DNA from: Alphaproteobacteria bacterium
GTDB lineage: Bacteria; Pseudomonadota; Alphaproteobacteria; Sphingomonadales; Sphingomonadaceae
NCBI GenBank assembly: GCA_030431435.1
Contig: JAUIJI010000004.1
Coordinates: 1 to 53,753, forward strand
DNA length: 53,753 nt
Direction of reading: 5' to 3'
In this document: one piece after another, positions 27,471-47,615 of the stretch
How the letters are laid out: each line of letters starts with the position of its first letter
How positions within the stretch are numbered: position 1 is the stretch's first letter
Notes under the pieces: generated by a model
The model's database searches: none
Seen by the model: only the letters and a program-made list of their open reading frames with translations
Told to the model about the DNA's origin: nothing
Made by a program: the position numbers and the translations under genes

Positions 27471-27586
27471 GATTACGCAACCGCATCCGCGGTTGCATCC
27501 TCGCTGCTATTCCCTCCCCCGTACAAATCCGGGTCCGGGGCAGCTGCGGGCGGGCGGTCGCCCTATGGTTCGGCACTTGCCGAACG
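27471..27586 (+). repeat. Structured intergenic element, copy A (after FKBP gene)
   Basis: The element starts four bases after the FKBP stop and ends just before the convergent DUF2332 stop. Stem 1 is GCAACCGC / GCGGTTGC (27477-27496) with loop ATCC, followed by the constant ATCCTC. A second pairing joins the CCCTCC and GGGG blocks. Stem 3 is GGGC-GGTC-GCCC (27552-27563). Stem 4 is GTTCGGCA-CT-TGCCGAAC (27568-27585). Two more copies occur at 41835-41944 (-) and 47511-47615 (+); their stems differ in sequence but stay paired. Confidence 0.75.
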
Positions 27587-27595
27587 GCATTCTGT

Positions 27596-28639
27596 TCACG
27601 CCAGCCACTGCACCCACGCGCCATGCGGGTGCGCCTCGGCGAGTTGCACCACCTCTTCACCATTGGGCCAGTATTTCACCGTCAATTCGTGGCGGAAGGT
27701 TGTGCGGTTGGTTTCCAGCCTGATCCACGCCAGCGGTTTTTCTGCCGTGGCCGCCTCACCCGCGTCGTTCATCATGTCCGTTATCGCATCGCGCGAGGCT
27801 TGCGGTAGGTACTGCCACATGATCGTGTGGAACAGCACGCGGGTGACGCCGTCTTCCTGTGACCGCGCGAGCCGTTCGCGCACGAAGTCCACCGCGTCCA
27901 TCCGCGCCAGGTCAGGCGGCATCTTCTTCGCCAGCGCAATCGCCGCATCCATGCGCGCCATGCGCTGCTGCGCGTCGGCCCAGACATAGGCCTTCAGCCG
28001 CTGCGCCTGCCGCTCGTCAGTCAGATCGACCGGCGCAATGTCGCATCCGGCAATGTCGGTGATCCGCACCTCTGCCTTCGGCGGGGCATCGCCGCGCCAT
28101 TCTGGCCTGATCTGCATGCTCGACAGGCTCGGCCCTGCCCTGGTGCCGCCAAGGTCATAGTGATAGCGCGCCATCATCGTGTTGATGCCCGCGCTCGCAC
28201 CGATCTCGGTCAGCTCGAACTTCGGCCCCAGCCGCGTCGAAAGCCACAGCAGCGCGCCCATCACGCTGGCCGAGCGGCCCGCCTCGTTCGTTTGCGGCGG
28301 GCTGTCGAACCACTTCAGCAGCATGTGATCGCAGGTCTCGACCGCTTCCAGCACAAGGGTATCCACCTGCCCCTGATCACTCACCAGCCCGGTAAAGACA
28401 GGCTCCAGCCGCGCGTCCTCGCCATTCAGATACAGGGAATGGATACCTGCCGTGATCCGCAGCGCCAGCGCATCCTCGATCGCCTGACCCTGCCATTCCT
28501 TCAACCGGCGGCCGGTAGCGGTATCGCTTTCCATCACCGGCAGCAGGGCGCGGATCACCCGCGCGGTGATCGGCGCGTCTGATCGTTCGCAATGCGCCGC
28601 ATGCCATTCCAGCGCCTCGGCAATCGTGGGAATTTCCAT
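27596..28639 (-). CDS. DUF2332 family protein
   Basis: This 347-residue protein belongs to DUF2332, as shown by the segments ASVMGALLWLSTRLGPKFEL then TEIGASAGINTMMARYHYDLGG. The middle part resembles a methyltransferase-like glycine-rich loop (EIGASAG), and RVLFHTIMWQYLP and WPNGEEVVQLAEAHPHGAWV follow. The function is not known. The ATG at 28639 (MEIPTIAEAL) is chosen; a TTG at 28669 would add ten residues. It is divergent from hisG with 71 bp between. Confidence 0.88.
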   Translation of the reverse strand: MEIPTIAEALEWHAAHCERSDAPITARVIRALLPVMESDTATGRRLKEWQGQAIEDALALRITAGIHSLYLNGEDARLEPVFTGLVSDQGQVDTLVLEAVETCDHMLLKWFDSPPQTNEAGRSASVMGALLWLSTRLGPKFELTEIGASAGINTMMARYHYDLGGTRAGPSLSSMQIRPEWRGDAPPKAEVRITDIAGCDIAPVDLTDERQAQRLKAYVWADAQQRMARMDAAIALAKKMPPDLARMDAVDFVRERLARSQEDGVTRVLFHTIMWQYLPQASRDAITDMMNDAGEAATAEKPLAWIRLETNRTTFRHELTVKYWPNGEEVVQLAEAHPHGAWVQWLA

Positions 28640-28710
28640 CGCTGGGACCGGATCATCTTTCGCCGCCAATGTGATTGCCCTTTCCGCACTTGCAAACTAC
28701 ATGCCCGCCC

Positions 28711-29379
28711 ATGAGCCAGACTGCACCCCGACCACTGACCTTCGCCGTGCCCAAGGGCCGGATCCTGGAAGAGGCGCTGCCGGTGATGGCGCGCGCGGGC
28801 GTCGTGCCTGTTTCGGCCTTCCATGACAAGGCCGACCGTTCGCTGAGCTTCGCCTGCGAGGCAGACGACATGCGCATCATCCGCGTGCGCGCTTTCGACG
28901 TGGCGACCTTCGTCGCTTTCGGCGCAGCGCAGGTGGGCATCGTGGGCTCCGACGTGATCGAGGAATTCAGCTATTCGGAGCTTTACGCACCGGTCGACCT
29001 CGATATCGGCCACTGCCGCCTGTCGGTGGCAGAACCGGTGGAAGGCAGCGAGGCCGCAGTGGGCCATGCAAGCCACCTGCGCATCGCCACCAAGTATCCC
29101 AACATCACCAGCCGCCACTTTGAACAAAAGGGCGTGCAGGCCGAATGCGTGAAGCTGAACGGCGCGATGGAACTCGCGCCTTCGCTGGGCCTTGCGGGGC
29201 GGATCGTGGACCTCGTCTCCACCGGGCGCACACTGAAGCAGAACGGTCTGGTCGAGAAGGACCGCATCATGGACATCAGCGCCCGGCTGATCGTCAACCG
29301 TGCCGCCTTGAAGACCGATGGCCGCGTGGCCGCGCTGGTCGAACGCTTTCGCGCCAATGCGGCAGAGGATGCCGCCTGA
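28711..29379 (+). CDS. hisG: ATP phosphoribosyltransferase, short form
   Basis: This 222-residue enzyme joins PRPP and ATP in the first step of histidine synthesis. It carries [30 protein letters not shown] and the PRPP loop region [19 protein letters not shown]. It lacks the C-terminal regulatory domain of the long form, so it needs the HisZ regulatory subunit. HisZ is not encoded in this window. Its TGA shares one base with the ATG of hisD, so it is the first gene of hisG-hisD-nusB-thiL. Confidence 0.96.
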
Positions 29380-30668
29380 TGCAGCGCCTCAAGACAACCG
29401 ACCCCGATTTCGAGCGGCGCTTTGCCGCGATCGTGAATGACCGGCGCGAGAGCGACAATGACGTCAGCCGCGTGGTCAGCGATATCCTTGCGCGGGTGAA
29501 GACCGGCGGTGATGCAGCCCTGCGCCAGCTGACCGAGCGGTATGACCACCACGACCTTGGCAGTGATGGATGGTCTATCCCGGCAGCTGCCTGCAAGGCG
29601 GCTTACGAAGCGCTGGAGCCGAAACTGCGCGAGGCGCTGGACCTCGCCGCATCGCGCATCCGCGCCTATCACGAAGCGCAACTGCCCGAGGACCGCGACT
29701 ATACCGATGCTGCCGGTGTCCGCCTCGGCGCGCGCTGGTATCCGGTGGACGCGGCGGGGCTTTACGTTCCCGGTGGACGCGCCGCTTACCCTTCCAGCCT
29801 GCTGATGAACGCGATCCCCGCCAAGGTGGCAGGGGTGGAGCGGCTGGTCGTCGCCACCCCAACCCCGCATGGCAAGGTGAACGAGCTGGTGCTCGCTGCT
29901 GCGCATGTTGCCGGAGTGGACGAAATCTGGCGCGTCGGCGGGGCACAGGCCGTGGCCGCCCTCGCCTATGGCACAGAGACGATCCAGCCGGTCGATGTCA
30001 TCACCGGCCCGGGCAATGCCTTCGTCGCCGAAGCCAAGCGCCAGCTTTACGGCGTGGTCGGCATCGACATGGTGGCAGGGCCCAGCGAAATCCTCGTGAT
30101 CGCAGACAACAAGTCCGATCCGGACTGGATCGCCGCTGACTTGCTCAGCCAGGCCGAGCATGACCCCACTTCGCAAAGCATCCTCATCACCGACGACGCA
30201 ATCTTCGCCGAACAGGTCGAGGACGCGGTGGACGTGACCTGCGCCCAGCTCGCCACGCACGACACCGCGCGCGCCAGCTGGGACGATTACGGCGTCCTGC
30301 TGGTGGTGGAAGACCTGCTCGAGGAGGGCACCGCCCTCGCCAACCGCCTCGCCGCCGAACACGTCGAGCTGTCGGTCGATGATCCGCAAGGCTTTTTCGA
30401 CAAGCTGCGCCACGCGGGCAGCGTGTTCCTCGGCCGCCACACGCCCGAAGCCGTTGGCGATTACGTTGCCGGCCCCAACCACGTACTGCCCACCGGCCGC
30501 CGCGCCCGCTTTTCCAGCGGCCTTTCCGTGCTCGACTTCATGAAGCGCACCAGTTTTCTGGGGCTGGACGAAGCGTCGCTCGGGAAAATCGGCCCCGCTG
30601 CCGTGGCGCTGGCCGAGATGGAGGGGCTTCCCGCTCACGCAAGATCCGTCGAGGTGCGCCTCAAATGA
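29379..30668 (+). CDS. hisD: Histidinol dehydrogenase
   Basis: This 429-residue zinc enzyme oxidises L-histidinol to histidine in two NAD-dependent steps. Signature regions are GLYVPGGRAAYPSSLLMNAIPA, ITGPGNAFVAEAKRQLYG, DMVAGPSEILVIAD, LLSQAEHDP (zinc ligand region Gln/His) and GPNHVLPTGRRARFSSGLSV. Glu and His catalytic residues appear intact (for example AEHVELS). It overlaps hisG by one base and nusB by four. Confidence 0.97.
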   Translation: MQRLKTTDPDFERRFAAIVNDRRESDNDVSRVVSDILARVKTGGDAALRQLTERYDHHDLGSDGWSIPAAACKAAYEALEPKLREALDLAASRIRAYHEAQLPEDRDYTDAAGVRLGARWYPVDAAGLYVPGGRAAYPSSLLMNAIPAKVAGVERLVVATPTPHGKVNELVLAAAHVAGVDEIWRVGGAQAVAALAYGTETIQPVDVITGPGNAFVAEAKRQLYGVVGIDMVAGPSEILVIADNKSDPDWIAADLLSQAEHDPTSQSILITDDAIFAEQVEDAVDVTCAQLATHDTARASWDDYGVLLVVEDLLEEGTALANRLAAEHVELSVDDPQGFFDKLRHAGSVFLGRHTPEAVGDYVAGPNHVLPTGRRARFSSGLSVLDFMKRTSFLGLDEASLGKIGPAAVALAEMEGLPAHARSVEVRLK

Positions 30669-31114
30669 CCAAGTCCGCCCGATCCACCGCGCGCTCTGCC
30701 GCGCGCCTCGCCGCCGTGCAGGCGCTTTACCAGCGCCATATGGAAGCCACGCCCACCGCCAAGCTGCTCGACGAATTCCACCAGCACCGGCTAGGCAAGG
30801 AGATCGAGGACGAGCAATATGCCGATGCCGAAGTCGAATTCTTCGATGACGTGGTGAGCGGCGTGATCGCCCGCGACGAGGAAATCGACGCGCTCGTCAC
30901 CGCCAAGCTCGCCGAGGGCTGGACGCTGGCGCGGCTCGACAAGACGATGGTCCAGATCCTGCGCTGCGGCACCTACGAACTGCTCGCCCGCGCCGATGTG
31001 CCCAAGGCCACAGCGATCAGCGAATATGTCGACGTCGCCCACGCCTTTTTCGACGAGCGCGAGGCAAAATTCGTCAACGGCGTGCTCGATGCGATTGGCA
31101 AAGAGGTTCGGTGA
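30665..31114 (+). CDS. nusB: Transcription antitermination factor NusB
   Basis: This 149-residue all-helical protein acts with NusE (S10) on boxA during rRNA transcription. SAARLAAVQALYQRHM is the N-terminal helix that holds the Arg-rich RNA contacts, and LDKTMVQILRCGTYEL with KATAISEYVDVAHAFFDE is the typical C-terminal half. It overlaps hisD (ATGA) and thiL (GTGA). Confidence 0.96.
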   Translation: MTKSARSTARSAARLAAVQALYQRHMEATPTAKLLDEFHQHRLGKEIEDEQYADAEVEFFDDVVSGVIARDEEIDALVTAKLAEGWTLARLDKTMVQILRCGTYELLARADVPKATAISEYVDVAHAFFDEREAKFVNGVLDAIGKEVR

Positions 31115-31983
31115 GCCGCGAGGCTGACTTTATCCATTCCCTGCGGGCAATAGCCACGCATCCCGCTGCGCGCGGCCTGGCCGACGATTGTGCGGTGCTG
31201 GAACTGGGCAGCGAAACGCTGGTCCTCACGCATGACATGATGGTCGAGGGCACGCATTACCTCGCCGGGTCGGACATGGCCGATGTGGCGTTCAAGCTGG
31301 TGGCAGTGAACCTTTCGGACCTTGCGGCGAAGGGCGCAGAGCCTGTGGGCGTGCTGCTCGGCCATATGCTGGGTGAAGGTGACCATCGCTTTGCTGAAGG
31401 TCTAGCGGAAGTTCTCGCCGCTTACGACGTGCCGTTGCTGGGTGGAGACACCGTGTCCGGTGCTGGCCCCAAATCACACGGCATCACTGCGATAGGCCGC
31501 GCAACGCACACGCCCGTGCCCTCCCGCTCAGGCGCGCAGGTGGGCGATGCCCTCTACGTCACCGGCACGCTGGGCGCGGCTATGCTCGGGTTCGAGGCCT
31601 TGCGCGATGGGACCGGGGGCGATCATACGGCATATTCCCGCCCGATACCCCTCATTGCAGAAGGCAAGGCCCTCGCCCCGCATGTCACCGCGATGATGGA
31701 TGTCTCGGACGGATTGCTGCTCGATACCTTCCGCATGGCCGAGGCAAGCGAAGTCTCCATCGCGATCAACAGCACCGCCGTGCCCGTAGCCGATCCCGCG
31801 CGCGCGCTCGACTGCATGCGCTGGGGCGATGATTACCAGCTGCTCTTCGCCCTGCCCGCAGGCGTGGAATCGCCCGTGCCCGCAACCCGCATCGGCAGCG
31901 TGGAACCGCGCGGATTTGCCCCGCTGTTCCTCGACAGGGAACCGCTGCTGAACCCCGAAGGCCTCGGCTACACCCACAAATAA
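31111..31983 (+). CDS. thiL: Thiamine-monophosphate kinase
   Basis: This 290-residue ATP-dependent kinase makes thiamine diphosphate from thiamine monophosphate. The start is a GTG that overlaps the nusB stop. Conserved parts are DDCAVLELG, TLVLTHDMMVEGTHYL, AVNLSDLAAKGAEPVGVL, LLGGDTVSG and the metal-binding MMDVSDGLLLD. The nusB-thiL order is conserved in many proteobacteria. Confidence 0.96.
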   Translation: MSREADFIHSLRAIATHPAARGLADDCAVLELGSETLVLTHDMMVEGTHYLAGSDMADVAFKLVAVNLSDLAAKGAEPVGVLLGHMLGEGDHRFAEGLAEVLAAYDVPLLGGDTVSGAGPKSHGITAIGRATHTPVPSRSGAQVGDALYVTGTLGAAMLGFEALRDGTGGDHTAYSRPIPLIAEGKALAPHVTAMMDVSDGLLLDTFRMAEASEVSIAINSTAVPVADPARALDCMRWGDDYQLLFALPAGVESPVPATRIGSVEPRGFAPLFLDREPLLNPEGLGYTHK

Positions 31984-32109
31984 GGTGCCATTGCGGGGAT
32001 AACCGCCCTTTCCGCTTGCAATTGCGCCCATGGCAATTAGCCCTGTTGTCCTCAACACGGACCCGGGCAAACCGGGCCGTTTCCATTTTGGAGAGGGGGA
32101 TTACGGGTC

Positions 32110-34224
32110 ATGGACCTCGTTTTACTATCAATCATACTGGGCGGGCTGGCCGTCGTGTACGGCATTTTTACCAGCCGCCAGGTTCTCGGTGCTGACGCCG
32201 GGAACGAAAGAATGCAGGAAATTTCCGGAGCCGTTCAGGAAGGCGCACAAGCCTATCTGAACCGGCAGTACACCACGAGCGGCATGGTCGGCGTGGTTGT
32301 TGCCGTGCTGGTCGGCGTGTTCCTGGGTGTCATCCCGGCAGTTGGCTTCCTGATCGGTGCCGTGCTTTCGGGTGTGGCCGGTTATATCGGCATGAACATC
32401 TCGGTTCGCTCCAACGTGCGCACCGCAGCGGCTGCGGCCAAGGGCCTGCAACAGGGCCTGACCATCGCTTTCCGCGCTGGCGCGATCACCGGCATGCTGG
32501 TGGCAGGTCTCGCCCTGCTAGCCATCGCCGTGTTCTTCTATGTGCTGACCACCAGCATGGGCCTTGAAGCCAATAGCCGCACCGTGATTGACGGGCTTGT
32601 CGGCCTCGCCTTCGGTGCCTCGCTGATCTCGATCTTCGCGCGTCTCGGCGGTGGTATCTTCACCAAGGCTGCCGACGTGGGCGCTGACCTTGTCGGAAAG
32701 GTCGAAGCCGGTATCCCGGAAGACGATCCCCGCAACCCCGCCACCATCGCTGACAACGTGGGCGACAATGTGGGCGACTGCGCGGGCATGGCGGCTGACC
32801 TGTTCGAAACCTATGTCGTGACCGTGGGTGCCACCATGGTGCTCACCGCGCTGCTGCTGACCCAGCTGGGCGATTTGCTGATGCCGCTGATGGCTCTGCC
32901 GCTGCTGATTGGCGGTGCCTGCATCGTCACCAGCATCATCGGCACCTATTTCGTGCGCCTCGGCAATGGCACCAATGTGATGGGGGCCATGTACAAGGGC
33001 TTCATCGTCACCGCCGTGCTGGCCATTCCGCTGATCTGGTTTGCGGTCTCCTATGCCCTTGGCGGCGTGGGAACGGACATGAACACCGTCCTCAACCCGG
33101 GCACGGGCATGGTCGAATTCACCGGCCGTGACCTGTTCTACTGCTCGCTGATCGGCCTCGTGCTGACCGGCGTGATCATCTGGATCACCGAATACTACAC
33201 CGGCACCAATTTCCGCCCGGTGAAGTCCATCGCCAAGGCATCGGAAACGGGCCACGGCACCAATGTGATCCAGGGTCTCGCCATCAGCCTGGAATCGACT
33301 GCCCTGCCGACCATCGTGATTATCGCGGCGATCATCGGGGCATACCAGCTGGCTGGCCTGATCGGCCTGGCATATGGCGCAACCGCGATGCTGGCGCTGG
33401 CCGGCATGGTCGTGGCGCTCGATGCTTATGGTCCGGTGACCGATAACGCCGGCGGCATCGCCGAAATGGCCGGTCTGGACGAAAGCGTCCGCGAAAAGAC
33501 CGACCTGCTCGATGCCGTGGGCAACACCACCAAGGCCGTGACCAAGGGCTATGCCATCGGTTCGGCAGGGCTCGCAGCACTCGTGCTGTTTGCCGCTTAC
33601 ACCGCTGACCTCAGGGAATACTTCCCGACTGCTGACGTGAACTTCAGTCTCGAGAATCCCTATGTCATCGTCGGCCTGCTGCTCGGCGCGCTGCTCCCGT
33701 ACCTGTTCGGTGCGATGGGCATGACCGCCGTGGGCCGCGCTGCGGGTGACGTGGTGAAGGACGTTCGCGAACAGTTCGCCGCCGATCCCGGCATCATGGC
33801 AGGCACCAGCCGCCCGAACTATGCCCGCACGGTGGACCTCGTGACCAAGGCAGCGATCAAGGAAATGATCATCCCCTCGCTGCTGCCGGTGCTCGCGCCG
33901 ATCGTGGTGTATTTCGTGATCAACGGCCTTGCCGGTCAGGACAACGCCTTCGCCGCGCTGGGTGCGCTGCTGCTGGGCGTGATCGTGGGCGGCCTGTTCG
34001 TGGCGCTTTCCATGACTGCCGGTGGCGGTGCATGGGACAACGCCAAGAAATACATCGAGGACGGCAATCACGGCGGCAAGGGCTCCGAAGCCCACAAGGC
34101 CGCGGTGACCGGCGATACCGTTGGCGATCCCTACAAGGACACCGCGGGGCCTGCCGTGAACCCGATGATCAAGATCACCAATATTGTCGCATTGCTGCTG
34201 CTGGCAGCGCTGGCCGGGCACTAA
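32110..34224 (+). CDS. hppA: Membrane-bound proton-translocating pyrophosphatase
   Basis: This 704-residue integral membrane protein (about 16 spans) hydrolyses pyrophosphate to pump protons. The substrate-site motifs are present: [20 protein letters not shown] then [30 protein letters not shown] and [15 protein letters not shown]. The potassium-selectivity position reads [10 protein letters not shown] with Lys475 and Thr478, which is the K+-independent type. The leader contains a hairpin (near 32063-32086) and a GGAGAGGGGG SD 12 bases before ATG. A perfect terminator follows. Confidence 0.97.
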
Positions 34225-34255
34225 GCCTTTAACCAGCCGACAGTTTTGGCGAAAG

Positions 34256-34292
34256 AACCCTGCCCGGACAATGCGTCCGGGCAGGGTTTTCT
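34256..34292 (+). terminator. Rho-independent terminator of hppA
   Basis: A perfect 14-bp stem AACCCTGCCCGGAC / GTCCGGGCAGGGTT (34256-34269 and 34275-34288) with loop AATGC runs into TTCTTT. Confidence 0.93.
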
Positions 34293-34382
34293 TTACCCTT
34301 TGCCTTAATCCTTCCTTGGGCCGCCCGCCCTTAGAAAATCCCTTCGGCAGCTTGGGGCTCGCCGCGGAAGGGTTAAGAAATC

Positions 34383-35567
34383 TTGGGCCAAAGTGTAAAC
34401 GCACTGCCGCCGCGTGATGATGTTCGCGCGGCAGGCACCGCCAGCGGGGCGCAGTACCGCCCGCTCGGCAGCGTGCGCGCCATGGCATGGCAGGACATGC
34501 GCAGCCCGCAACAGATCGGCCGCTGGCAAGCCCTCGCCCGTTGCAGTGTGCAGCCCAATCCGTTCTGCGAGCACTGGTTCCTCCTGCCTTCGCTCGAGGC
34601 GCTGGACCCGCGCGGCACAGTGAAGCTGCTCTGCCTCGAGGTGGACGGGCAACTGGCCGGCCTCATGCCGCTATGCCGCCAGACGTCCTATTACGGCCAT
34701 CCCCTGCCGCACATGCGCAACTGGCTGCATGCCAACGCCTTTTCCGGCCAGCCGCTGGTGGCCGCTGGCATGGAGGCGCTGTTCTGGCGCGAGGTGCTGG
34801 CCTGGTGTGACAGCCATGCTGGCACCAGCCTGTTCCTCCACCTCCAGCAACTGCCCGGAGACGGCGTGCAGCACGAAGCGCTCAAGCTGCTGGTGGCAAG
34901 CGAGGAACGCCCTGCCGCCACGGTGCTGGATGAAGCGCGGGCCATGCTCGCCACCAGCCTCGATGCCGAAACCTACCTTGGCCAGTCGCTGACCCAGAAG
35001 AAGCGCAAGGAACTGCGCCGCCAGCAGCGTCGGCTGGGTGAAGAGGGCGAGCTCGAAACCCGCCGCAGCCGCGATGCTCGCGGCGTGGACGAGTGGATCG
35101 AGGAATTTCTCGCTCTCGAAACCGCCGGCTGGAAGGGCCGCGCGGGTTCGGCACTTGCATCAGGCGATGCCACCGCAACCATGTTCCGCCAGACCATGCG
35201 GGCCGCTGCCGAACTGGGCAGGCTGGAGCGGCTCTCGCTCATGCTTGATGGCAAGCCTGTCGCCATGCTGGCAACCTTGCTGGCCGCGCCCGGTGCCTAT
35301 TCCTTCAAGACCGCCTTTGACGAGGACTATGCCCGCTTTTCGCCCGGCGTACTCTTGCAGCTCGAGAACCTCGCGATCATCGGGGACCCGGAGATCGCCT
35401 GGGTCGATAGCTGCGCGGTCGAGGACCACAAGATGATCGATCACCTGTGGCGCGAGAAGCGCCGCATGGCGTCCCATTCGATTGGCATCGGCGGAGGCGT
35501 GCGGCGCAGCATCTTTGGCCAGCTCGCCCGCCATGAAACCGGGAAACAGCCACGGGGGATCACGTGA
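34383..35567 (+). CDS. CelD/FemAB-like GNAT N-acyltransferase
   Basis: This 394-residue cytoplasmic protein has the double GNAT layout of CelD/BcsL proteins. LCLEVDGQLAGLMPLC is the first half, and LSLMLDGKPVAMLATLL with YSFKTAFDEDYARFSPGVLL is the C-terminal acyl-CoA-binding domain. A basic patch (TQKKRKELRRQQRRLGEEGE) lies near 205-224. Start is TTG with GGAAGGG upstream; the first ATG is 33 codons in (34482). Its stop overlaps the next gene by four bases (GTGA), so it is coupled to a JmjC-like oxygenase. The acceptor is unknown. Confidence 0.86.
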   Translation: MGQSVNALPPRDDVRAAGTASGAQYRPLGSVRAMAWQDMRSPQQIGRWQALARCSVQPNPFCEHWFLLPSLEALDPRGTVKLLCLEVDGQLAGLMPLCRQTSYYGHPLPHMRNWLHANAFSGQPLVAAGMEALFWREVLAWCDSHAGTSLFLHLQQLPGDGVQHEALKLLVASEERPAATVLDEARAMLATSLDAETYLGQSLTQKKRKELRRQQRRLGEEGELETRRSRDARGVDEWIEEFLALETAGWKGRAGSALASGDATATMFRQTMRAAAELGRLERLSLMLDGKPVAMLATLLAAPGAYSFKTAFDEDYARFSPGVLLQLENLAIIGDPEIAWVDSCAVEDHKMIDHLWREKRRMASHSIGIGGGVRRSIFGQLARHETGKQPRGIT

Positions 35568-37386: not shown

Positions 37387-37392
37387 GCCGGC

Positions 37393-39486: not shown

Positions 39487-40596
39487 ATGATGAAGCAGGA
39501 ACTTGAACATACGCAGACCACAGGCGGGGGCTTCCTCGGCTGGCTGGGCTTTGGTCGCCATGACGATAGTGCCGTAGCGGCGCAGGAATATGGCAAGGAC
39601 ATGGTGAAGCAAGCGCGGACCGCCCTGATGCAGCGCATATCGGCCTTCCTCCTCGACAACGGGCTGGAGGTCACTGCGCAGAACCTGACCACAGCGCACA
39701 GCGTCTTTACCGGGCTCAACCCCGGCCTCAAGCGGCGCATCGATCGCCTGGCCGAGGAAGGCCAGCCGGTCACCCAGGCATGGCTCGATCTTGCCACAGC
39801 ATCCGATGGCGAGCGGGACGACAAGGCGGTGGACAAGCTGGTCGACCGGCTCGAACAGGGTATCGCCGACTTCTCGCGCACCACCGCCGATGCGCGCAAC
39901 GCGACAAGCGAATATGGCGAGGCGCTGGAGCAGCATGTCGACCATCTCCAGGCTGTGCCCGATGCGGGTCACCTCCTCACCGACCTTGCCGAATATGCCA
40001 GCGCCATGCTCGAACGTTCGCGCAAGGCCGAGGAGCAGCTGCGCCAGAGCGAGGAAGAGGCTGCATCCTTGCGCCGCAACCTTGACCGGGCGCGCCGCGA
40101 TGCCGAGATCGACTTCCTCACCGGCCTGCCCAACCGCCGCGCCTTCGAAGCCTATCTCGAAAAGCAATATCGCGAGGCGAAGTCCGCCGTCGAACCGCTG
40201 AGCGTGGCCTTTTGCGATATCGACCACTTCAAGCTGGTCAACGACACGCACGGCCACGAGGCGGGCGACCGGATCATCTGCATTGTCGCCAAGACGCTCG
40301 CGCAGATCTCCGACGACAAGTGTCACATCGCCCGCCACGGCGGAGAAGAATTCGTGATGTTGTTCCGCGGTGCGACTGTCGATGATGCCTGCGCCAAGCT
40401 GGACGAAGCGCGCGAAATGCTCGCCAAGCGCAAGCTGGTGAACCGCCGTACGCAGCAACCCTTCGGCCAGGTCACCTTCTCTGGCGGCGTTGCCAATGTC
40501 TTCGGCTATGACACGCCCGGAGAGGCGCTCGCGGCGGCCGATGCGGCGCTTTACGAGGCCAAGGAAGGCGGCAGGAACCGCATCTGCAAGGCGTGA
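39487..40596 (+). CDS. Diguanylate cyclase (GGDEF domain)
   Basis: This 369-residue cytoplasmic protein has an N-terminal helical region (1-200, with a coiled coil near 165-205) and a C-terminal GGDEF domain: FLTGLPNRRAFEAYL, AFCDIDHFKLVND and ARHGGEEFVML. The active-site GGEEF is intact, so it should make c-di-GMP. The product-inhibition RxxD before GGEEF is absent (DDKC), so feedback is probably weak. No sensory domain is recognised in the N-terminal half. It starts 138 bp after the divergent uvrC start. A PilZ protein is encoded at 16990. Confidence 0.93.
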   Translation: MMKQELEHTQTTGGGFLGWLGFGRHDDSAVAAQEYGKDMVKQARTALMQRISAFLLDNGLEVTAQNLTTAHSVFTGLNPGLKRRIDRLAEEGQPVTQAWLDLATASDGERDDKAVDKLVDRLEQGIADFSRTTADARNATSEYGEALEQHVDHLQAVPDAGHLLTDLAEYASAMLERSRKAEEQLRQSEEEAASLRRNLDRARRDAEIDFLTGLPNRRAFEAYLEKQYREAKSAVEPLSVAFCDIDHFKLVNDTHGHEAGDRIICIVAKTLAQISDDKCHIARHGGEEFVMLFRGATVDDACAKLDEAREMLAKRKLVNRRTQQPFGQVTFSGGVANVFGYDTPGEALAAADAALYEAKEGGRNRICKA

Positions 40597-40638
40597 TCGC
40601 GGTTGGCACCGCGCGCGTTCACCCCTAACGCGGGAGCC

Positions 40639-41790
40639 ATGAGCGACAGCTTCGATGCAATCATTCTCGGCGGCGGGGCGGCAGGCCTGTTCTGCGCGGC
40701 CCAGGCGGGCCAACGCGGGCGCAATGTGCTGGTGCTGGAGCGCGCCGAGAAGGTCGGCAAGAAGATCCTGATTTCGGGCGGCGGACCGGGCAACTACCTC
40801 TCGGCCAACCCGCATTTCTGCAAGTCCGCACTGAGCCGCTATCGCCCGCGCGATTTCCTCGCACTGATGGAAAAGCACGACATCGCCTGGCACGAAAAGA
40901 CGCTGGGCCAGCTGTTCTGCGATGGAAGCGCGCGGCAGGTCGTGGATATGCTGCTGGAAGAATGCGCGGCAGGCCCCGGCAAGGTCACCATCCGCTGCAA
41001 TGAAGAGGTGAGCGAGGTCGCCCGTGACGGGGCGCAGTTTACCGTGACCACCCAATATGGCCAGTTCACTGCACCGAAGCTGGTGATCGCCACCGGCGGC
41101 CCCTCGATCCCCAAGATGGGCGCGAGCGATTTTGCTTACCGGCTGGCGCGGCAATTCGGCCTCAAGGTGGTCGAACCGCGCCCCGCTCTCGTCCCGCTGA
41201 CGCTGGGCGGCGAGGAGGTGCTGTTTCGCGAGCTGTCTGGTGTGGCAGCGCCAGTGGAAGCCAAGGCTGGCAAGACGACGTTCCGCGAGGCGGCCCTGTT
41301 CACCCATAAGGGCCTGTCAGGCCCGGCAATCCTGCAGATATCGAGCTACTGGAAGCCGGGCGAGCCCGTGCTGATCGATTTCACCCCGGGTGAAACGCCA
41401 GACTGGCTTGTGGATGCCAAGCGGGCGCGGCCATCTGCTACCCTGCGTTCGATCCTGCGCGAGCAACTGCCCGCAAGGCTCGCCGATGTGCTGGGCGAGC
41501 AGCTCGGCGTGGAAGGCGACCTCGGCAATATCCCCGACAAGGCGCTGCGCGCGGCGGGACAGCGGCTGAAGCGCTGGGAATTCCACCCCAACGGAACCGA
41601 GGGCTTCGCCAAGGCCGAAGTCACTGCAGGCGGCATCTCGACCGCCGAACTGTCATCGCAAACGATGGAAGCAAAGAAGCTCCCCGGCCTCTACGCCATC
41701 GGCGAGGCAGTGGACGTCACCGGCTGGCTGGGCGGGTACAACTTCCAATGGGCCTGGGCGAGTGGCTATGCGGCGGGGCAAGAACTTTAG
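40639..41790 (+). CDS. HI0933/YhiN-family flavoprotein with short FAD-loop
   Basis: This 383-residue protein has the dinucleotide site AIILGGGAAGLFCAAQAG (8-25), VVEPRPALVPLTL and the C-terminal GLYAIGEAVDVTGWLGGYNFQWAWASG. Family members bind FAD and are likely NAD(P)H-dependent oxidoreductases of unknown role. In the usual sequence ISGGG is followed by RCNFTN and about five more residues before the LSANPHF segment. Here it reads ISGGGPGNYLSANPHF, so about ten residues seem to be missing in frame at 40777-40806. The rest is intact. Start ATG has GGGAG just before it. Confidence 0.88.
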   Translation: MSDSFDAIILGGGAAGLFCAAQAGQRGRNVLVLERAEKVGKKILISGGGPGNYLSANPHFCKSALSRYRPRDFLALMEKHDIAWHEKTLGQLFCDGSARQVVDMLLEECAAGPGKVTIRCNEEVSEVARDGAQFTVTTQYGQFTAPKLVIATGGPSIPKMGASDFAYRLARQFGLKVVEPRPALVPLTLGGEEVLFRELSGVAAPVEAKAGKTTFREAALFTHKGLSGPAILQISSYWKPGEPVLIDFTPGETPDWLVDAKRARPSATLRSILREQLPARLADVLGEQLGVEGDLGNIPDKALRAAGQRLKRWEFHPNGTEGFAKAEVTAGGISTAELSSQTMEAKKLPGLYAIGEAVDVTGWLGGYNFQWAWASGYAAGQEL

Positions 41791-41834
41791 CCGAACAGAC
41801 CCATCTGGCGCTGCGACCCGAGTCTAACCTATCG

Positions 41835-41944
41835 TGACGCGAACCGGTCGCGTCAGCGACCGCAAGGCCGACCGGCCGCCCGCAGGTGCCCCGCAGCGCA
41901 GCGGAGGGAGACGCACCGAGGATGCCCGCCCGGATGGGCGGGCG
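41835..41944 (-). repeat. Structured intergenic element, copy C (after TonB receptor)
   Basis: On the minus strand this starts four bases after the receptor stop. Stem 1 is GCCCGCCC / GGGCGGGC (41924-41943) with loop ATCC, then ATCCTC. CTCCCTCC and GCGGGGCACCTGCGGG are the conserved middle blocks. Stem 3 is GGCC-GGTC-GGCC (41866-41877). Stem 4 is CGGTCGC / GCGACCG (41845-41862), with an alternative pairing TGACGCG / CGCGTCA (41835-41855). Copies A and B share the fixed blocks but have different stem sequences. Confidence 0.75.
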
Positions 41945-41948
41945 AAAC

Positions 41949-44900
41949 TCAAAAGAGCTTACGGAACTCGATCTCGAAGCTGCGGCCTTCTGGATCGATC
42001 AGGAACGGCTGGTAGCGGATCGGCACGGTGCCGGTGCTGTCCGTCACGCGCTGGCGCGCATCGAAGATGTTGTCGACAGAGAAGGCGATACGCGTCCCGT
42101 CGAGGAAGGGCACCGCTTCCACCAGACCACCGCGCTGGTCGAGATCGGCAAACACGCGGATATCGAAGGTGACATAATCGCCAAAGTTCAGGTCCGTGCT
42201 GCCTGCAAGCCCCGTGCCCGCGAGGGTGGAGGAGCCCGTGTAGCGCCCGCTCACGAACATGCCGAAGCCGTTATAGAAAGTACCCAGCCGCATGTTGGCA
42301 GAGTGCTTGGGCTGGTTGCTGTCTCCGTTGAGCAAGTCGAGCACGGGAACGCCCGGCGCGATCAGCGCGGTGTTTTCCAGCTCCAGCGTATATTGCAGGT
42401 TGAGGAACCAGCGCCCGCCGGAACCGCCACCGCCGCGTCCGCCCATGAACGGCAGGCGCATGCCCGGACCGCCGCCGCCACCGGCAGCCGGAGGACCACC
42501 CGCGCCGGGGCCTTCCCCGCTACAGAAACGTTCCTTCAGCTGGGCCACGCGTTCGGCATCGATGGTGCCATCTTCATTGGTCAGCCGCTCGAGCATCTGC
42601 GGCGGCACCTGCAATGCGTCCTCGCCCGGTTCCTCGCCGCGAGCGCGGGCATCGGCCAGCAGCGTCAGGCGGCGCACCAGCTCCGCATTATCGAGCGTGC
42701 AGAAGCTCTCGCGCATCTGCTGGAACATGGCCGGATTGCCTCCGCCACCACCAAAACCCTGACCGGCTGCGGGAGGACCTTCGGCATTACAGATGCGATC
42801 GCGCATGGCAGTGAATTCCGCCTCGTCGATCACGCCGTCATCGCCGGCAATCGCGCGCAGCATCTGCGGCGGGATGTTCATCGGCTGGCCGTCTGCGCCA
42901 ATCGGCGGCGGACCGCCGGTTTCGGCGGCCTGCAGGACCTGGTTGAACTGGCGCCGCAGCGTGGCCTGGTCTGCCCCGCAGAATGAGGCCTGCATCTGGG
43001 CGAAGCGTTCGGGATCGCCGCCACCGGCGGGCGGGCCGGACTGCTGGCCAGCGCCCATCGCACCGCCCGCGAACTGGGCCGGACCACCGCCGCCGCCATT
43101 GCCTCCGCGCGAACCGCCGCGTTCTTCTTCGGCATCATTCCCGCCGATCTGGCCGTTGAAGTTGAGGCCGAACTGCAGCCGCTCCTGTTTCGTCGAAGCA
43201 TAGGTGATCGGGCGCTGGTCCAGCTGTACCAGCTGGCCGGTGGCATCGCGCGTCACCCGGTCCGGGAAAGCCGCTTCGATCGCCGGGGTCAGCGCCGGGA
43301 AGCCGGTGGCGACATCGCTGGAGGAATTGCGGAAATAGTCGACCGACACGCGGCCGCGATCCATGAACGGCAGTTCCCACTGCACGCCGAATTTCCAGTC
43401 GCTCTGGTTCTGCTTGGGCAGGAACGGATTGCCGCCCGAAATGACCGTGGCGAGCACCGTCTCGTTATTGGTGAGATCGAACACCGGCACGTTGAAGGTC
43501 GCGACTTCAGGGTTGCCCAGCTGGCTGAGCGAGGGAGCAGCATCGCGGTTGAGATAGGTGACGTTGAAGGTCAGCGCGTCGGTCAGCCCCCAGGTTACGC
43601 CCGTGTTCCACTCATACAGCGTGCCGAAATCGGAAAGGTGATCCACGCCGCCGCTGAAGTTGAGGCTGATATCGCCCACCGCGCCGCCAAACGCCGCATC
43701 GCGACTGGTCAGTGGTATGCCAAGGTTCATTCCGCCGCTCACCCTTCCACGGGTAAGCTGGGTCTGCAGACCGGGGTTGCGCGTGTCCTCGCTCTCGATG
43801 CGGTTCCAGCGATAGCCGCTCGACAGGGTCAGCGTGACATCGCCGGCAGGCAGGTAAAGCGGCATGGTGTTGCCGGTAACCAGCGCATTGGCGGTGTAAG
43901 TCTTGGTGAATGCCTGTTCGAAACCGGCATCGGCAAAGGGGCCAAGGTCAGCATCCAGCGCCAGGTCGCCCGCCAGCGCGGCATCTTCCAGCGCCGTGGT
44001 GTCGAGCCTGATCTGCGAGAAACTGCGGGACTTGCTGATGGTGCCGTCCACTGTTCCCGTAACGTCCCAGTCACCCAGGGCGAGGCTGAGCGTGGAAGCG
44101 CTGGACCAGTCCTGGCTGCGGCTGTCGAAAGTGAGCGGATCGCCTTCGTTGAATGTGCGCAGCGCGGTGTTGCCCGCCGGATCGGTGAGGAAGACCGTGT
44201 CGAGCCCCTGCAGGCTGAAGCTGTCGCTGCGCTCGTAAGTGCCGTTGACCGACAGCGAATTGCCCGGGCCAAGCGTGGTGGTCCAGTTGACCGTGCCTTC
44301 CAGCCCGGCGGTGTCGCTGCGCAAGCTGCGGAAAGCCGCCGGATCGGGGTCAGTCGGATAGGTCGGCACGGTGGATTGCACCACGCCGCGCTCCGCCTCT
44401 GTCAGCAGGCTGGAGTTGTCCCACTCGACATTGATGTTGAGGCGCGACGGGCCATCGATGCGCAGGTACGTGCCCTCCACTTCCTGCGAGGAGAAGCCGC
44501 CCCTGAAGGGCTGGCCATATTCCATCTCGATCTCGCGGCTGGAATAATTGTCCTTGAGGATGATGTTGACCACGCGCTGGTCCGGCGAATAGCCATATTG
44601 CAGCGCCACTTCCTCCGGGAAGACCTCGAATTTCTCGATCGCTTCGGGCGGGTAGCTGCGCAATTCGCGCGGGGAGGATATCCGCACGCCATTGACCAGC
44701 AGGATCGGGAAGCCGCCACCGCCGCGGCCACGCGCGCTCGAGACCTGCGGCCCCAGCTGTTCGAGCAGTTCTGCGATCGAGCCCGCGCCATAGGCAGCGA
44801 TATCCTCGGAATCGAGCTCGAGTATGGGGGGCTGCGGAGCATCGACCTGGCCGGCCAGCCGCGCGCCAAGGACAAGGATCGTATCCTCGTCATACGTATC

Positions 44901-45062
44901 GGCATCTTCGGGTGGCTGCGGCTGCGGAGGGGCGTCTGCTTGCGCGCTCAGGTCAGCAGAGGCAGGGGCTTGCTGAGCCAGCGCCGCGGAGGCGGGAGCA
45001 AATGCAAGGCCGATGGCGAGGGCTGAAAGGCTCGCAGAGCTGAACAATCGCAAATACTTCAC
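41949..45062 (-). CDS. TonB-dependent outer-membrane receptor with repeated insertion modules
   Basis: This 1037-residue protein has a signal peptide (ending about SAALAQ), a plug domain (ILELDSEDIAAYGAGSIAEL, PILLVNGVRISS, QRVVNIILKDN) and a long beta-barrel with a C-terminal Phe (EIEFRKLF). Between barrel parts, at residues about 638-882 (nt 42415-43150), there is a glycine-rich insertion that contains two similar modules of about 75 residues. Each has Cys at both ends (695 and 758; 788 and 847), a PPQMLRAI/PPQMLERL helix and an EF-hand-like loop (DDGVIDEAEF, EDGTIDAERV). Start codon is GTG. The ligand is unknown. Confidence 0.92.
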   Translation of the reverse strand: MKYLRLFSSASLSALAIGLAFAPASAALAQQAPASADLSAQADAPPQPQPPEDADTYDEDTILVLGARLAGQVDAPQPPILELDSEDIAAYGAGSIAELLEQLGPQVSSARGRGGGGFPILLVNGVRISSPRELRSYPPEAIEKFEVFPEEVALQYGYSPDQRVVNIILKDNYSSREIEMEYGQPFRGGFSSQEVEGTYLRIDGPSRLNINVEWDNSSLLTEAERGVVQSTVPTYPTDPDPAAFRSLRSDTAGLEGTVNWTTTLGPGNSLSVNGTYERSDSFSLQGLDTVFLTDPAGNTALRTFNEGDPLTFDSRSQDWSSASTLSLALGDWDVTGTVDGTISKSRSFSQIRLDTTALEDAALAGDLALDADLGPFADAGFEQAFTKTYTANALVTGNTMPLYLPAGDVTLTLSSGYRWNRIESEDTRNPGLQTQLTRGRVSGGMNLGIPLTSRDAAFGGAVGDISLNFSGGVDHLSDFGTLYEWNTGVTWGLTDALTFNVTYLNRDAAPSLSQLGNPEVATFNVPVFDLTNNETVLATVISGGNPFLPKQNQSDWKFGVQWELPFMDRGRVSVDYFRNSSSDVATGFPALTPAIEAAFPDRVTRDATGQLVQLDQRPITYASTKQERLQFGLNFNGQIGGNDAEEERGGSRGGNGGGGGPAQFAGGAMGAGQQSGPPAGGGDPERFAQMQASFCGADQATLRRQFNQVLQAAETGGPPPIGADGQPMNIPPQMLRAIAGDDGVIDEAEFTAMRDRICNAEGPPAAGQGFGGGGGNPAMFQQMRESFCTLDNAELVRRLTLLADARARGEEPGEDALQVPPQMLERLTNEDGTIDAERVAQLKERFCSGEGPGAGGPPAAGGGGGPGMRLPFMGGRGGGGSGGRWFLNLQYTLELENTALIAPGVPVLDLLNGDSNQPKHSANMRLGTFYNGFGMFVSGRYTGSSTLAGTGLAGSTDLNFGDYVTFDIRVFADLDQRGGLVEAVPFLDGTRIAFSVDNIFDARQRVTDSTGTVPIRYQPFLIDPEGRSFEIEFRKLF

Positions 45063-45283
45063 TCCAGTTGAAAGTCACGCTTGCCCCTCTGGCGGCCATA
45101 TGTGTCGCAGTGCACAATCGAACAAGCCACATAGGGTAATAAAATGTCGCAAATGTATCGCGCATGTCCGGAAACTGCTGCATCGGCCCCGGATTGCCAG
45201 AATCGCGCCGAGTCTTCCCTTTTGCGCCGCCCGGGGCTATGGCGCGCGGCAATGAACAAAACTGAAAACGGAATGCATGTTTA

Positions 45284-45532
45284 ATGGCTAAAGAAGAACT
45301 CCTCGAAATGCGCGGCAAGGTGGTGGAACTGCTGCCGAACGCGATGTTCCGGGTTGAGCTTGAAAATGGTCATGAAGTCCTCGGCCATACGGCAGGGCGC
45401 ATGCGCAAGAACCGCATCCGCGTGCTGGTGGGGGACGAGGTGCTGTGCGAACTCACCCCCTATGACCTGACGAAGGCGCGCATCACCTATCGCTTCATGC
45501 CGGGCCGCGGCGGCCCCGGTCCGCAATCCTGA
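45284..45532 (+). CDS. infA: Translation initiation factor IF-1
   Basis: This 82-residue OB-fold protein binds the ribosomal A site during initiation. The sequence [19 protein letters not shown] and [20 protein letters not shown] are strongly typical. A short Gly/Pro-rich tail follows the usual 72 residues. It is the first gene of infA-maf-rng-yacG-tRNA-Phe, a conserved order. The 221-bp upstream gap separates it from the divergent TonB receptor and holds no gene. Confidence 0.97.
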
Positions 45533-45546
45533 GTGATAGTGCGGGC

Positions 45547-46122
45547 ATGGCCCCGCCCCAACTCATCCTCGCATCAGCCAGCCCCCGACGGCGTGAACTG
45601 CTGGAACGGCTGGGCATTGCTGCGGATGCAGTGGCTCCTGCCGATATCGACGAGACCCCGCAAAAGGGCGAGCTTCCCCGTGACTATGCATTGCGCATGG
45701 CGCGCGAGAAGGCGCAGGCGGCTGCTTCCGCCGATGGACATGTGCTGGCTGGGGACACGGTCGTCGCTTGCGGGCGGCGCATCCTGCCCAAGGCAGAGGA
45801 CGAGGCGACCGCGAAGTCATGCCTCGAACTGTTGTCCGGCCGTCGCCACCGCGTGTTTTCGGCCATCGCGCTGCTGTCACCCGACGGCACCATGCGCGAA
45901 AGGCTGAGCGAAACCTCGGTGCGCTTCAAGCGCCTCTCTGCAGAAGAGATCACCGATTACCTCGCCAGCGGCGAATGGGACGGCAAGGCCGGTGGCTATG
46001 CCATCCAGGGCCGCGCCGAGGGCCTGATCGCGTGGATCGAAGGCAGCCATTCTGCCGTCGTCGGCCTGCCGCTGTTCGAAACCCGCGCGCTGCTGAAAGC
46101 TGCGGGGTTCTCTCTTGGCTGA
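45547..46122 (+). CDS. maf: Maf-family nucleoside triphosphate pyrophosphatase
   Basis: This 191-residue enzyme hydrolyses non-standard or pyrimidine NTPs. The signature LILASASPRRRELLERLGI is at the N-terminus, with LAGDTVVACGRRILPKAED containing the catalytic Asp, and EWDGKAGGYAIQGRAEGLI near the C-terminus. It lies 14 bp after infA and is followed by an 87-bp gap with a small palindrome before the RNase gene. Confidence 0.95.
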   Translation: MAPPQLILASASPRRRELLERLGIAADAVAPADIDETPQKGELPRDYALRMAREKAQAAASADGHVLAGDTVVACGRRILPKAEDEATAKSCLELLSGRRHRVFSAIALLSPDGTMRERLSETSVRFKRLSAEEITDYLASGEWDGKAGGYAIQGRAEGLIAWIEGSHSAVVGLPLFETRALLKAAGFSLG

Positions 46123-46137
46123 TCTGCCCACCCCCAA

Positions 46138-46159
46138 CCCCTCCCGCAAGCGGGAGGGG
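46138..46159. repeat. Small GC palindrome after maf
   Basis: CCCCTCCCGC-AA-GCGGGAGGGG is a perfect 10-bp hairpin of the kind repeated in intergenic regions of this group. There is no T run, so it may not terminate transcription. Confidence 0.7.
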
Positions 46160-46209
46160 AGCGAGACTTGCCGAACCGCAGGTGAGGCTAGTCGCAGCGG
46201 GGTGGGGCT

Positions 46210-47166
46210 GTGACCTGGTTGGTCGAGCAAGGCATCGGCGAGGAGCGCGCGCTGCTTGTCGAAAACGGCCGTGCGATTGCCGCGAAGGTGCAATGGCCCG
46301 ATGAACTGGTCGCCGGTGCGGTTCTCGAAGGCATCCTCGTCGCGCGGGCAAGGAACTCGCCGCGCGGGCGCGCCCTTTTTGCAGGCGGGGAGGAAGCGCT
46401 GGTCGACAAGCTGCCGCGCGATGCCAGCGAAGGCGCACAAATGCGCTTCGAGATCACCCGCGGCGCGGTGGGAGAGGCTGCACGGCGCAAGCTGGCACAG
46501 GCCCGCCCCACCGATGCGCCCGAACGCCCTGCCATGCCGCTGGCGGGAAAGCTGGGCGCCCGCGTGGTCCGCCGCTTTCCCGACAACCTGTGGGAGGAAG
46601 TGCTCGACGAATGCTGGAGCGGGATCGTCGATTTTTCCGGCGGATCGCTGCATTTCAGCCCGACGCCGGCGATGGTGGTGGTCGATATCGACGGCACAAT
46701 GCGCCCGCGTGACCTGGCGCTGGCCGCCGTCCCTGCCCTCGCCCGCGCGATCGCCCTGTTCGACCTTGGCGGCGTGATCGGCGTGGATTTCCCCACCTTG
46801 CAGGCGAAGGATGACCGCAAGGCGGTGGATGCCGCGCTGGGCGTGGCACTGGCCGATTGGGACCATGAGCGCACCGCGATGAACGGTTTCGGCTTCGTGC
46901 AGCTGGTGGCGCGGATGGAAGGGCCTTCGCTGCTTCATCGCACCCGCTTCCAGCGCGCTGCGGCTGCTGCGCGGCTGCTCCTGCGCAGGGCAGAAGACGT
47001 TCCCGGTGCGGGCGCAGTGTTGCTTACCGCCCATCCGGCCGTGATTGCCTGCCTTGCCGAGGACTGGTTGGCGGAACTCAAACGCCGCCTTGGCCGCGAT
47101 GTGTTGGTCAAGGCCGATGCTGCCCTTGCACTCGAATCGGGTTTCGCGCAGGCAGTGCCAGCATGA
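46210..47166 (+). CDS. Short ribonuclease E/G family protein
   Basis: This 318-residue protein (GTG start) matches the catalytic DNase I-like part of RNase E/G. PAMVVVDIDGTMRPR then ALARAIALFDLGGVIGVDFPTL aligns with IDVN...LGGIIIIDFIDM, keeping the two metal-binding Asp positions (Asp159 or 161 and Asp193). The S1 domain region is much reduced and the zinc-link and small domain are not seen; RNase G is normally about 490 residues. It may be a trimmed, specialised RNase or a weakened one. Its TGA overlaps yacG by four bases. Confidence 0.82.
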   Translation: MTWLVEQGIGEERALLVENGRAIAAKVQWPDELVAGAVLEGILVARARNSPRGRALFAGGEEALVDKLPRDASEGAQMRFEITRGAVGEAARRKLAQARPTDAPERPAMPLAGKLGARVVRRFPDNLWEEVLDECWSGIVDFSGGSLHFSPTPAMVVVDIDGTMRPRDLALAAVPALARAIALFDLGGVIGVDFPTLQAKDDRKAVDAALGVALADWDHERTAMNGFGFVQLVARMEGPSLLHRTRFQRAAAAARLLLRRAEDVPGAGAVLLTAHPAVIACLAEDWLAELKRRLGRDVLVKADAALALESGFAQAVPA

Positions 47167-47330
47167 GCCAGACGAAGAAATGCCCCATCTGCAGGAAGCC
47201 GCGCACAGAGGAATTTGCGCCCTTCTGTTCCAGCCGCTGCAAGGATCGTGACCTCGCCCGCTGGTTCAATGACGACTACGCCGTCCCCGGCGATCCGGTG
47301 AATCCTGAAGATATTGCGCAAGAGGATTAG
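47163..47330 (+). CDS. yacG: DNA gyrase inhibitor YacG
   Basis: This 55-residue zinc protein has the four-cysteine motif KCPICRK...FCSSRCKDRDLARW and the acidic C-terminal tail that inhibits gyrase. It is translated from the ATG that overlaps the RNase stop (ATGA). It is short but full-length for the family. Confidence 0.95.
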   Translation: MSQTKKCPICRKPRTEEFAPFCSSRCKDRDLARWFNDDYAVPGDPVNPEDIAQED

Positions 47331-47420
47331 AAAACCCCCTTGCCAAGCGGTTCATGCTTCGCCATAGCGCCGCTTCCAACCGCTCGCCGGTCCCGTCAAA
47401 AGGATCGTCGCCGAAGCGAA

Positions 47421-47495
47421 GCCCGGGTAGCTCAGTGGTAGAGCAGGCGATTGAAAATCGCCGTGTCGGTGGTTCGACTCCGCCCCTGGGCACCA
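47421..47495 (+). tRNA. tRNA-Phe (GAA)
   Basis: A 75-nt cloverleaf is present. The acceptor stem is GCCCGGG / CCTGGGC (one G-U), the D arm is GCTC...GAGC, the anticodon stem GGCGA / TCGCC encloses TTGAAAA with anticodon GAA (47453-47455), and the T arm is GGTGG-TTCGACT-CCGCC. The CCA is encoded. It follows yacG, as is common in alphaproteobacteria. Copy B of the structured element begins 15 bases after the tRNA. Confidence 0.98.
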
Positions 47496-47510
47496 CTTTT
47501 GTTATTGGTG

Positions 47511-47615
47511 GTTACGCAGCCCCATCCGGGGCTGCATCCTCAGTGCTGTTCCCTCCGTCCTTCGGACTGCGGGGCACTTGCGGGGCGGCCGGTCGGCCTT
47601 TGACTGCCGTGACCA
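47511..47615 (+). repeat. Structured intergenic element, copy B (after tRNA-Phe)
   Basis: Stem 1 is GCAGCCCC / GGGGCTGC (47516-47535) with loop ATCC, then ATCCTC. GTTCCCTCC, a GTCC-TTC-GGAC hairpin and GCGGGGCACTTGCGGG follow. Stem 3 is GGCC-GGTC-GGCC (47587-47598). A fourth stem is weak in this copy. It matches copies A and C in layout. The stretch from here to 47675 has no gene. Confidence 0.75.

Follow-up and report, generated by a model that had tools for sequence, protein, structure and literature searches.

A dispersed family of four-hairpin repeats at gene ends in the Erythrobacter group, with paired stems probably exchanged between copies at the DNA level

The stretch of DNA analyzed here, 53,753 nt of an alphaproteobacterial genome (contig JAUIJI010000004.1, hereafter the window), contains three copies (A, B, and C) of a structured repeat unit that we call a head. 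The window copies are heads of type I; a second form, type II, is described below. According to our own gene finder all three copies lie in gaps between convergent genes, the downstream gene of copy C being a weak call. The names FKBP isomerase and TonB receptor for genes upstream of the copies are those of the initial annotation, which was made from the sequence alone, while the tRNA-Phe next to copy C was identified by annotation in this analysis; further neighbors are presumably an FAD oxidoreductase, a DUF2332 protein, and a ribonuclease G/E. The features are listed below, where R1 denotes a covariance model built from 14 heads of the window's genome.

27471..27585, + strand: copy A, type I head with stems 1-4 (R1 match 27471-27564, E 4.3e-13), in a 128-bp gap between convergent genes with stops at 27467 and 27596
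27477..27496, + strand: copy A stem 1, GCAACCGC-ATCC-GCGGTTGC
27497..27551, + strand: copy A stem 2 arm, CCC/GGG, a variable inner hairpin, and outer pairs with weak support; the covarying part is GCTGC (27503-27507)/GCAGC (27540-27544)
27552..27563, + strand: copy A stem 3, GGGC-GGTC-GCCC
27568..27585, + strand: copy A stem 4, GTTCGGCA/TGCCGAAC, perfect
41845..41949, - strand: copy B, type I head (R1 match 41865-41949, E 7.5e-13), between a + strand gene (stop 41790) and a - strand gene (stop 41949); stem 1 at 41924-41943, stem 3 at 41866-41877, stem 4 at 41845-41862 (perfect)
47510..47599, + strand: copy C, type I head (R1 match E 1.0e-12), 14 nt past the tRNA-Phe (47421-47495); stem 1 at 47516-47535, stem 3 at 47587-47598
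47600..47669, + strand: candidate tail of copy C, which by eye resembles the center of the genome's two-headed units (AATGGTCGCTnAGCCGAAGGC) and then stops; copy C and tail together may be a truncated two-headed unit

The copies carry the fixed blocks given in the initial annotation (loop ATCC, linker ATCCTC, TCCCTCC, GGGGCA..TGCGGG, and loop GGTC), and stems 1 and 3 are indeed perfectly paired yet different between copies. The positions proposed there were broadly right and are refined to 27471-27585, 41845-41949, and 47510-47599, with a tail of C possible to about 47669. Stem 4 had been described as perfect in A and C; it is perfect in A and in B, while in C no stem 4 hairpin was found directly 3' of stem 3. 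The 'nn' in GGGGCAnnTGCGGG, taken earlier for free bases, is actually the 3' arm of a covarying stem that had been missed, NNNGC/GCNNN, whose 5' arm follows ATCCTC and which closes the TCCCTCC...GGGG part. That each copy has the orientation of its upstream gene is uninformative, because all three gaps are convergent and either orientation in a convergent gap follows some gene.

A pattern search of the window's genome gave 20 matches compared to 0 for a reversed control; 15 were kept by eye and 5 dropped, and 14 of the 15 kept copies were aligned, with L005 omitted because of an insertion. R1 found 20 copies in this genome at E ≤ 0.001 and, in total, 232 matches in 167 loci, which reduced to 210 non-redundant heads. 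As R1 was built from 14 heads of one genome, decayed or divergent heads are missed. A head measures about 110 nt and has four hairpins: a T-rich 5' end (TTTG-TTTYNCG-like) is followed by stem 1, the linker RTCCTC (beginning with A or G), a long stem 2 that contains an inner hairpin, stem 3, and usually stem 4. Stem 1 is 8 bp long; of 204 parsed heads, 142 have ATCC as its loop and 38 have CTCC, and its arms come in 83 different versions in these 204; the first pair is G-C in 201 of 210 heads, the second C-G in 100 and A-T in 81. The loop of stem 3 is mostly GGTC.

Heads are commonly joined in pairs. Among close head pairs (<400 bp), 52 of 54 were arranged tail-to-tail (convergent), 41 of the 52 with 60-86 nt between the heads. 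The type II head consists of CTCAAGCGCCGG, a hairpin with a cATCCg loop, and CTTGGCTT. While 104 of the 210 heads lie in I-I pairs and 42 are followed downstream by a type II signature on the other strand, 64 show neither. Two-headed units, mostly 220-345 bp in length, hold about two thirds of the heads (146/210), which is an upper bound: the reversed control pattern of the type II search gave 7 matches, and some of the 42 calls are evidently false, e.g., L026 (copy B). Target-site duplications were absent in the 34 units with settable ends (2 three-base matches, 0.76 expected). Six heads of the window genome (L030-L035) share the stem 1 GCACGCCC/GGGCGCGC with the same A-C mismatch, most of them in I-II units with a similar center; this set suggests recent amplification. 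At L177 (2475-3140) two convergent heads enclose a small complete gene, by eye not a transposase, whose product we take for a ribosome hibernation factor; by this example head pairs may bracket genes.

Further copies were present in relatives, as the initial annotation had proposed to check: R1 matched 24 of 25 same-genus genomes (5-49 copies each) and 0 of 16 genomes from other families. The one same-genus genome without a match, G017, is complete and offers a contrast for what maintains the repeat. Wider searches matched 68 of 298 genomes sampled from the family, 75 of 297 from the order, and 4 of 289 from the class; these counts are not directly comparable, because only 14-15 candidates per genome were scored and E cut-offs differed (E ≤ 1e-4 for order and class). 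Every matching genome of the order and class searches lies in the window's own GTDB family (f1), and within the samples searched the head family is lineage-specific to it. The exact core pattern occurred in 14 stretches with the record names Altererythrobacter, Erythrobacter, Aurantiacibacter, Alteraurantiacibacter, 'Sphingomonadales bacterium', and 'Alphaproteobacteria bacterium'; the matching record names are those of the Erythrobacter group. In Rfam only the tRNA of the window was matched and nothing at E ≤ 1 over copy A, which gives the element no known RNA identity. A two-headed unit of the window's genome (L023, G000) had no plasmid or phage match. Weak Rfam matches in L023 were rejected: they hit the tRNA of that locus on either strand, or a GC palindrome at 993-1088 that is clear of the head.

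The same simple gene finder supplied the gene context of the family; some short genes escape it, as rpmH-like ends noticed by eye show. Leaving out 8 heads at locus edges, 202 heads were classed: 85 lie in convergent, 105 in same-direction, and 12 in divergent gaps. Orientation bias was small, as 57 heads in same-direction gaps run along the genes and 48 against them. The upstream gene shares the direction of the head in 142 of the 202 and is a tRNA in 19. In 35 of these 142 the R1 match starts exactly 4 nt past the gene end (32 stop codons, 3 tRNAs), and in 12 directly after the stop codon. Neighboring proteins were scanned for 148 of 156 listed entries, drawn from the first head of each locus, and no transposase was found among the commonest 25 of their 142 families; a phage capsid family accounted for 3 of the 148 proteins.

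At orthologous sites heads are present or absent. At site A the stops are 3 bp apart in G007 compared to 128 bp in the window, while G008 carries a head; the gap at site B measures 158 bp in the window but 5 bp in G007; at site C only 19 bp separate tRNA-Phe and the next gene in G007. All three of these G007 gaps are headless. For the genes beside A and B the closest match is in G007 (87% each), whereas the gene near C is closer to its counterparts in G008 and G009 (76%) than to that in G007 (66%). Loci were examined in 30 of 40 matching genomes for site A and 30 of 39 for site B, and an R1 match (E < 1) at the site was found in 2/30 and 6/30 loci, respectively, two of the six at E 0.10 and 0.22; one further match, in L221, lies away from the site. 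In 30 loci with the tRNA-Phe site a strong head follows the tRNA only in the window. L277 has a weak head (E 0.088), the match in L278 points toward the tRNA from the other side, and that in L298 lies elsewhere, while type II heads follow the tRNA in L278, L285, and L287 (by eye). The comparison is unrooted and does not set the direction of change. Among 107 heads examined there were 27 homologous gene-end clusters with heads in at least two loci. Between the sister genomes G011 and G013 (14/14 and 16/18 matching loci compared), 10 of 11 head sites of G011 are common to G013 at 87-93% DNA identity. As close relatives share head sites, copies turn over slowly.

Compensatory base change is a standard proof of conserved RNA structure, and by that measure the heads score highly. 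In the 14-copy alignment five helices comprise 378 cells with 95.8% standard pairs; 49 cells show double-sided change compared to a shuffle mean of 15.7, and 0 of 500 shuffles reached either this number or the paired fraction. The covariation seen in three copies is thus formally strong in the larger alignment. Selection at the RNA level should also leave G-U steps, with G-U far commoner than A-C. Over stems 1 and 3 and the inner parts of stem 2, the five helices of 182 heads (28 of 210 with unaligned stem 2 were dropped) contained 3869 Watson-Crick, 21 G-U, 58 A-C, and 39 other cells. The control, RNase P RNA from 30 genomes of the genus with only column pairs of at least 85% standard pairing kept, contained 3294 Watson-Crick, 234 G-U, 7 A-C, and 33 other cells. 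G-U is therefore about 12 times rarer in heads (0.5% vs. 6.6%) and not commoner than A-C. In the full set, 24 A-C cells come from one stem 1 column pair, largely from one subfamily. A tRNA control gave 46 wobble pairs in 703; A-C is undetectable there, every program-given tRNA pair being standard. Comparing sequences with each other, one-sided G-U changes numbered 2652 against 4794 Watson-Crick double changes in RNase P RNA, and 2891 against 86285 in heads, where single mismatches were likewise few (11824).

The way stems change between genomes was followed at orthologous sites. Double changes prevailed in 19 overlapping same-site pairs hand-picked from the clusters, where 77 of them were Watson-Crick and 2 were not; of the 14 single changes, 3 involved G-U and 11 were mismatches. 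A comparison of the sister genomes G011 and G013 covered 13 orthologous heads. While 8 had no double change in stem 1 and 3 single uncorrected changes in total, single changes were absent from the other 5, whose double changes numbered 3, 3, 4, 4, and 5, with the remainder of the head mostly much alike. Four of these 5 involve a stem allele present in another head of the two genomes; that of L344/L341 is present only in the other genome. The fifth pair, L335/L358, is more diverged and has one imperfect stem. By eye, the inner hairpin of stem 2 was exchanged likewise in L337/L336 and L344/L341.

We favor, with a probability of about 0.6, the interpretation that heads are a dispersed non-coding DNA hairpin repeat, resembling repetitive extragenic palindromic (REP) sequences and bacterial interspersed mosaic elements (BIMEs), whose hairpins are exchanged between copies at the DNA level. 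Two heads (I-I or I-II) joined tail-to-tail would form a BIME-like unit, which would be tolerated at the 3' ends of genes, chiefly in gaps of the convergent or same-direction kind. Each hairpin would act as a cassette, several stem pairs being replaced together while linkers and loops are retained, probably by exchange of whole hairpins bounded by the constant linkers. The exchange may take place with other copies through conversion over very short tracts or through strand exchange; donor, enzyme, and strand step are our proposals. It would keep stems paired without stepwise RNA compensation. Much of the covariation would then probably be a product of recombination rather than of RNA conservation. 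The original spread was probably by a single-stranded, REP-like route involving some enzyme. Of the options offered in the initial annotation, the best fit is the mobile palindromic element, with its targeting of gene ends as a putative property; selection on single-stranded DNA folding, also named there, may act as well.

Several observations weigh against hairpin exchange among tolerated repeats. Across the 19 same-site pairs, from more distant genomes, stem 1 had 0-5 double changes and in 7 pairs only 1-2, and such small numbers fit correction of single pairs better than exchange of a whole stem. Donor evidence is weak, because 4 of the 8 unchanged heads of G011/G013 also share a stem allele with another head. 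An exchange tract of some 20-30 nt is shorter than expected of RecA-type conversion, and neither the PF01797 screen of genomes nor the neighbor-protein scan yielded a responsible enzyme. The sharp peak at 4 nt past gene ends (35/142) hints at targeting or function and is left unexplained by neutral tolerance. Finally, 169 of 209 heads have T-G at one outer column pair of stem 2, which was excluded from the wobble count and would be G-U if real. The outer pairs of stem 2 contain 173 G-U (169 of them from this column pair) and 56 A-C, and taking all 27 pairs together there are 198 G-U in 5524 cells. As the T is kept whatever its partner and the neighboring column pair is A-C in 46 of 208 heads, we took the T-G as sequence conservation, the helix being unproven.

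Intra-hairpin template switching (quasipalindrome correction), in which one arm is copied from the other and neither selection nor a donor is needed, is an alternative that we consider unlikely as the main process, though still worth weighing. Template switching yields double substitutions without wobble intermediates by DNA-level events, as described in the accessible part of PMC8794818, and double changes free of wobble are therefore its expected mark. The 77 Watson-Crick double compared to 14 single changes and the 7 of 19 pairs with 1-2 double changes in stem 1 agree with it. However, stem 1 of G011/G013 shows either 3-5 double changes at once or none, and 3 single changes were left uncorrected there. 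Unlike the hairpins treated in that part of PMC8794818, heads change several pairs together, often to an allele present in another copy, and such shared alleles are left unexplained by template switching alone. Exchange and template switching may both act.

Rather unlikely, in our view, is a more specific form of exchange in which a single-strand recombinase would recognize the loops (ATCC/CTCC, GGTC) and linkers and swap whole hairpins, thereby diversifying paired stems; such an enzyme may also place heads exactly at gene ends.

A functional RNA element at mRNA or tRNA 3' ends (a stabilizer, processing signal, or unusual terminator), its fold kept by selection on the transcript, seems improbable. 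It is consistent with heads lying right after stop codons and tRNA ends, with the strong formal covariation, with the 27 homologous gene-end clusters, and with the conserved T-G column pair of stem 2. Nevertheless, RNA selection is doubtful because G-U is rare and not above A-C and because stem pairs change jointly, as in G011/G013; in addition, most orthologous gaps are headless (R1 at the site in 2/30 and 6/30 loci). The initial annotation was right about a structured repeat at gene ends, whereas its step from compensatory change to RNA selection is weakened by the same findings and now makes a weak case. No T run after a hairpin was seen by eye. The T-rich stretch precedes stem 1, which is followed by RTCCTC, and for this reason the head is not a usual intrinsic terminator.

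Movement at present by a REP-associated tyrosine transposase (RAYT) or another Y1 (HUH) transposase, with heads as REP-type miniature elements, is a still poorer candidate. While hairpin ends, inverted dimers, the lack of target-site duplication, and one PF01797 protein each in the window genome (G000) and G009 agree with such movement, PF01797 is absent from 14 of 16 same-genus genomes although these hold 5-49 copies each, and no R1 match (E ≤ 1) was found in the 8 scanned of 10 Y1 loci, two of them from genus genomes. Moreover, movement is not frequent, since 10 of 11 G011 sites are shared with G013. A miniature inverted-repeat transposable element of a DDE transposase, to which the T-rich inverted ends of two-headed units would correspond, is very improbable given the lack of target-site duplication (34 units) and of a transposase in the commonest 25 of 142 neighbor families.

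Comparison with known systems places heads near REP sequences without making them members. Like REP/BIME (GTAG) repeats, heads are dispersed palindromic hairpins forming inverted dimers, and REP elements, too, cause no target duplication. However, a REP (GTAG) is one palindrome of 20-40 bp with a GTAG tag, while the head has four hairpins in about 110 nt, a TTTG-like 5' end, and the RTCCTC linker; the stems of heads lack a conserved sequence (83 stem 1 arms in 204); and the linked transposase of the REP/RAYT system was not found for heads (PF01797 in 2 of 16 same-genus genomes, G000 and G009). Integron attC sites likewise keep their structure while the stem sequence varies. As far as the available text of PMC3733652 goes, GTAG repeats are located after gene 3' ends, between convergent or same-direction genes, as heads are. 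The same text describes CGTC repeats, which prevail in alphaproteobacteria, lack a dedicated transposase, and form dimers, many convergent copies lying <20 bp from the 3' ends of both genes; they are marked by a CGTC tag, their stems begin with A-T pairs, and most carry a CCA tail. Heads differ from this description in their first pair (G-C in 201/210), the RTCCTC linker, and the four hairpins, the comparison being with the text and not with the figure consensuses of that paper. Judged by sequence features and within that part of the source, the head family behaves like GTAG/CGTC repeats yet fails their tag, stem, and tail features. In the part of PMC3733652 considered here, G-T pairs within stems count in favor of a role as RNA; on that logic the few G-U pairs of heads point away from one. 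Erythrobacter cryptus is listed in a table of palindrome counts in PMC12306157, and the head element is not described in the accessible part of that paper. In the literature searched, which was covered in part, no published description of the head family was found. In L135, L139, L140, L241, and L250, GTCATTGCGAG...GCAAT palindromes share gaps with the head units of relatives or lie within those units; by eye they look like the published CGTC repeats.

The near-ideal covariation of heads thus probably arises in good part from DNA-level events, either exchange between copies or correction within a hairpin, and covariation screens of bacterial genomes could call such repeats functional RNAs. Counts of G-U compared to A-C, and the number of stem pairs that change together at orthologous sites, are simple checks that help to separate the two classes. 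If the exchange has an enzyme of its own, it would represent a new mode of repeat evolution.

Two minor features were noticed in addition. At 520-600 of the window, after its first gene, lies a separate inverted repeat seen by eye (GGTCCAGC...GCTGGACC). Short GC palindromes such as CCCCGGATCAAGTCCGGGG also form the inner hairpin of some heads.

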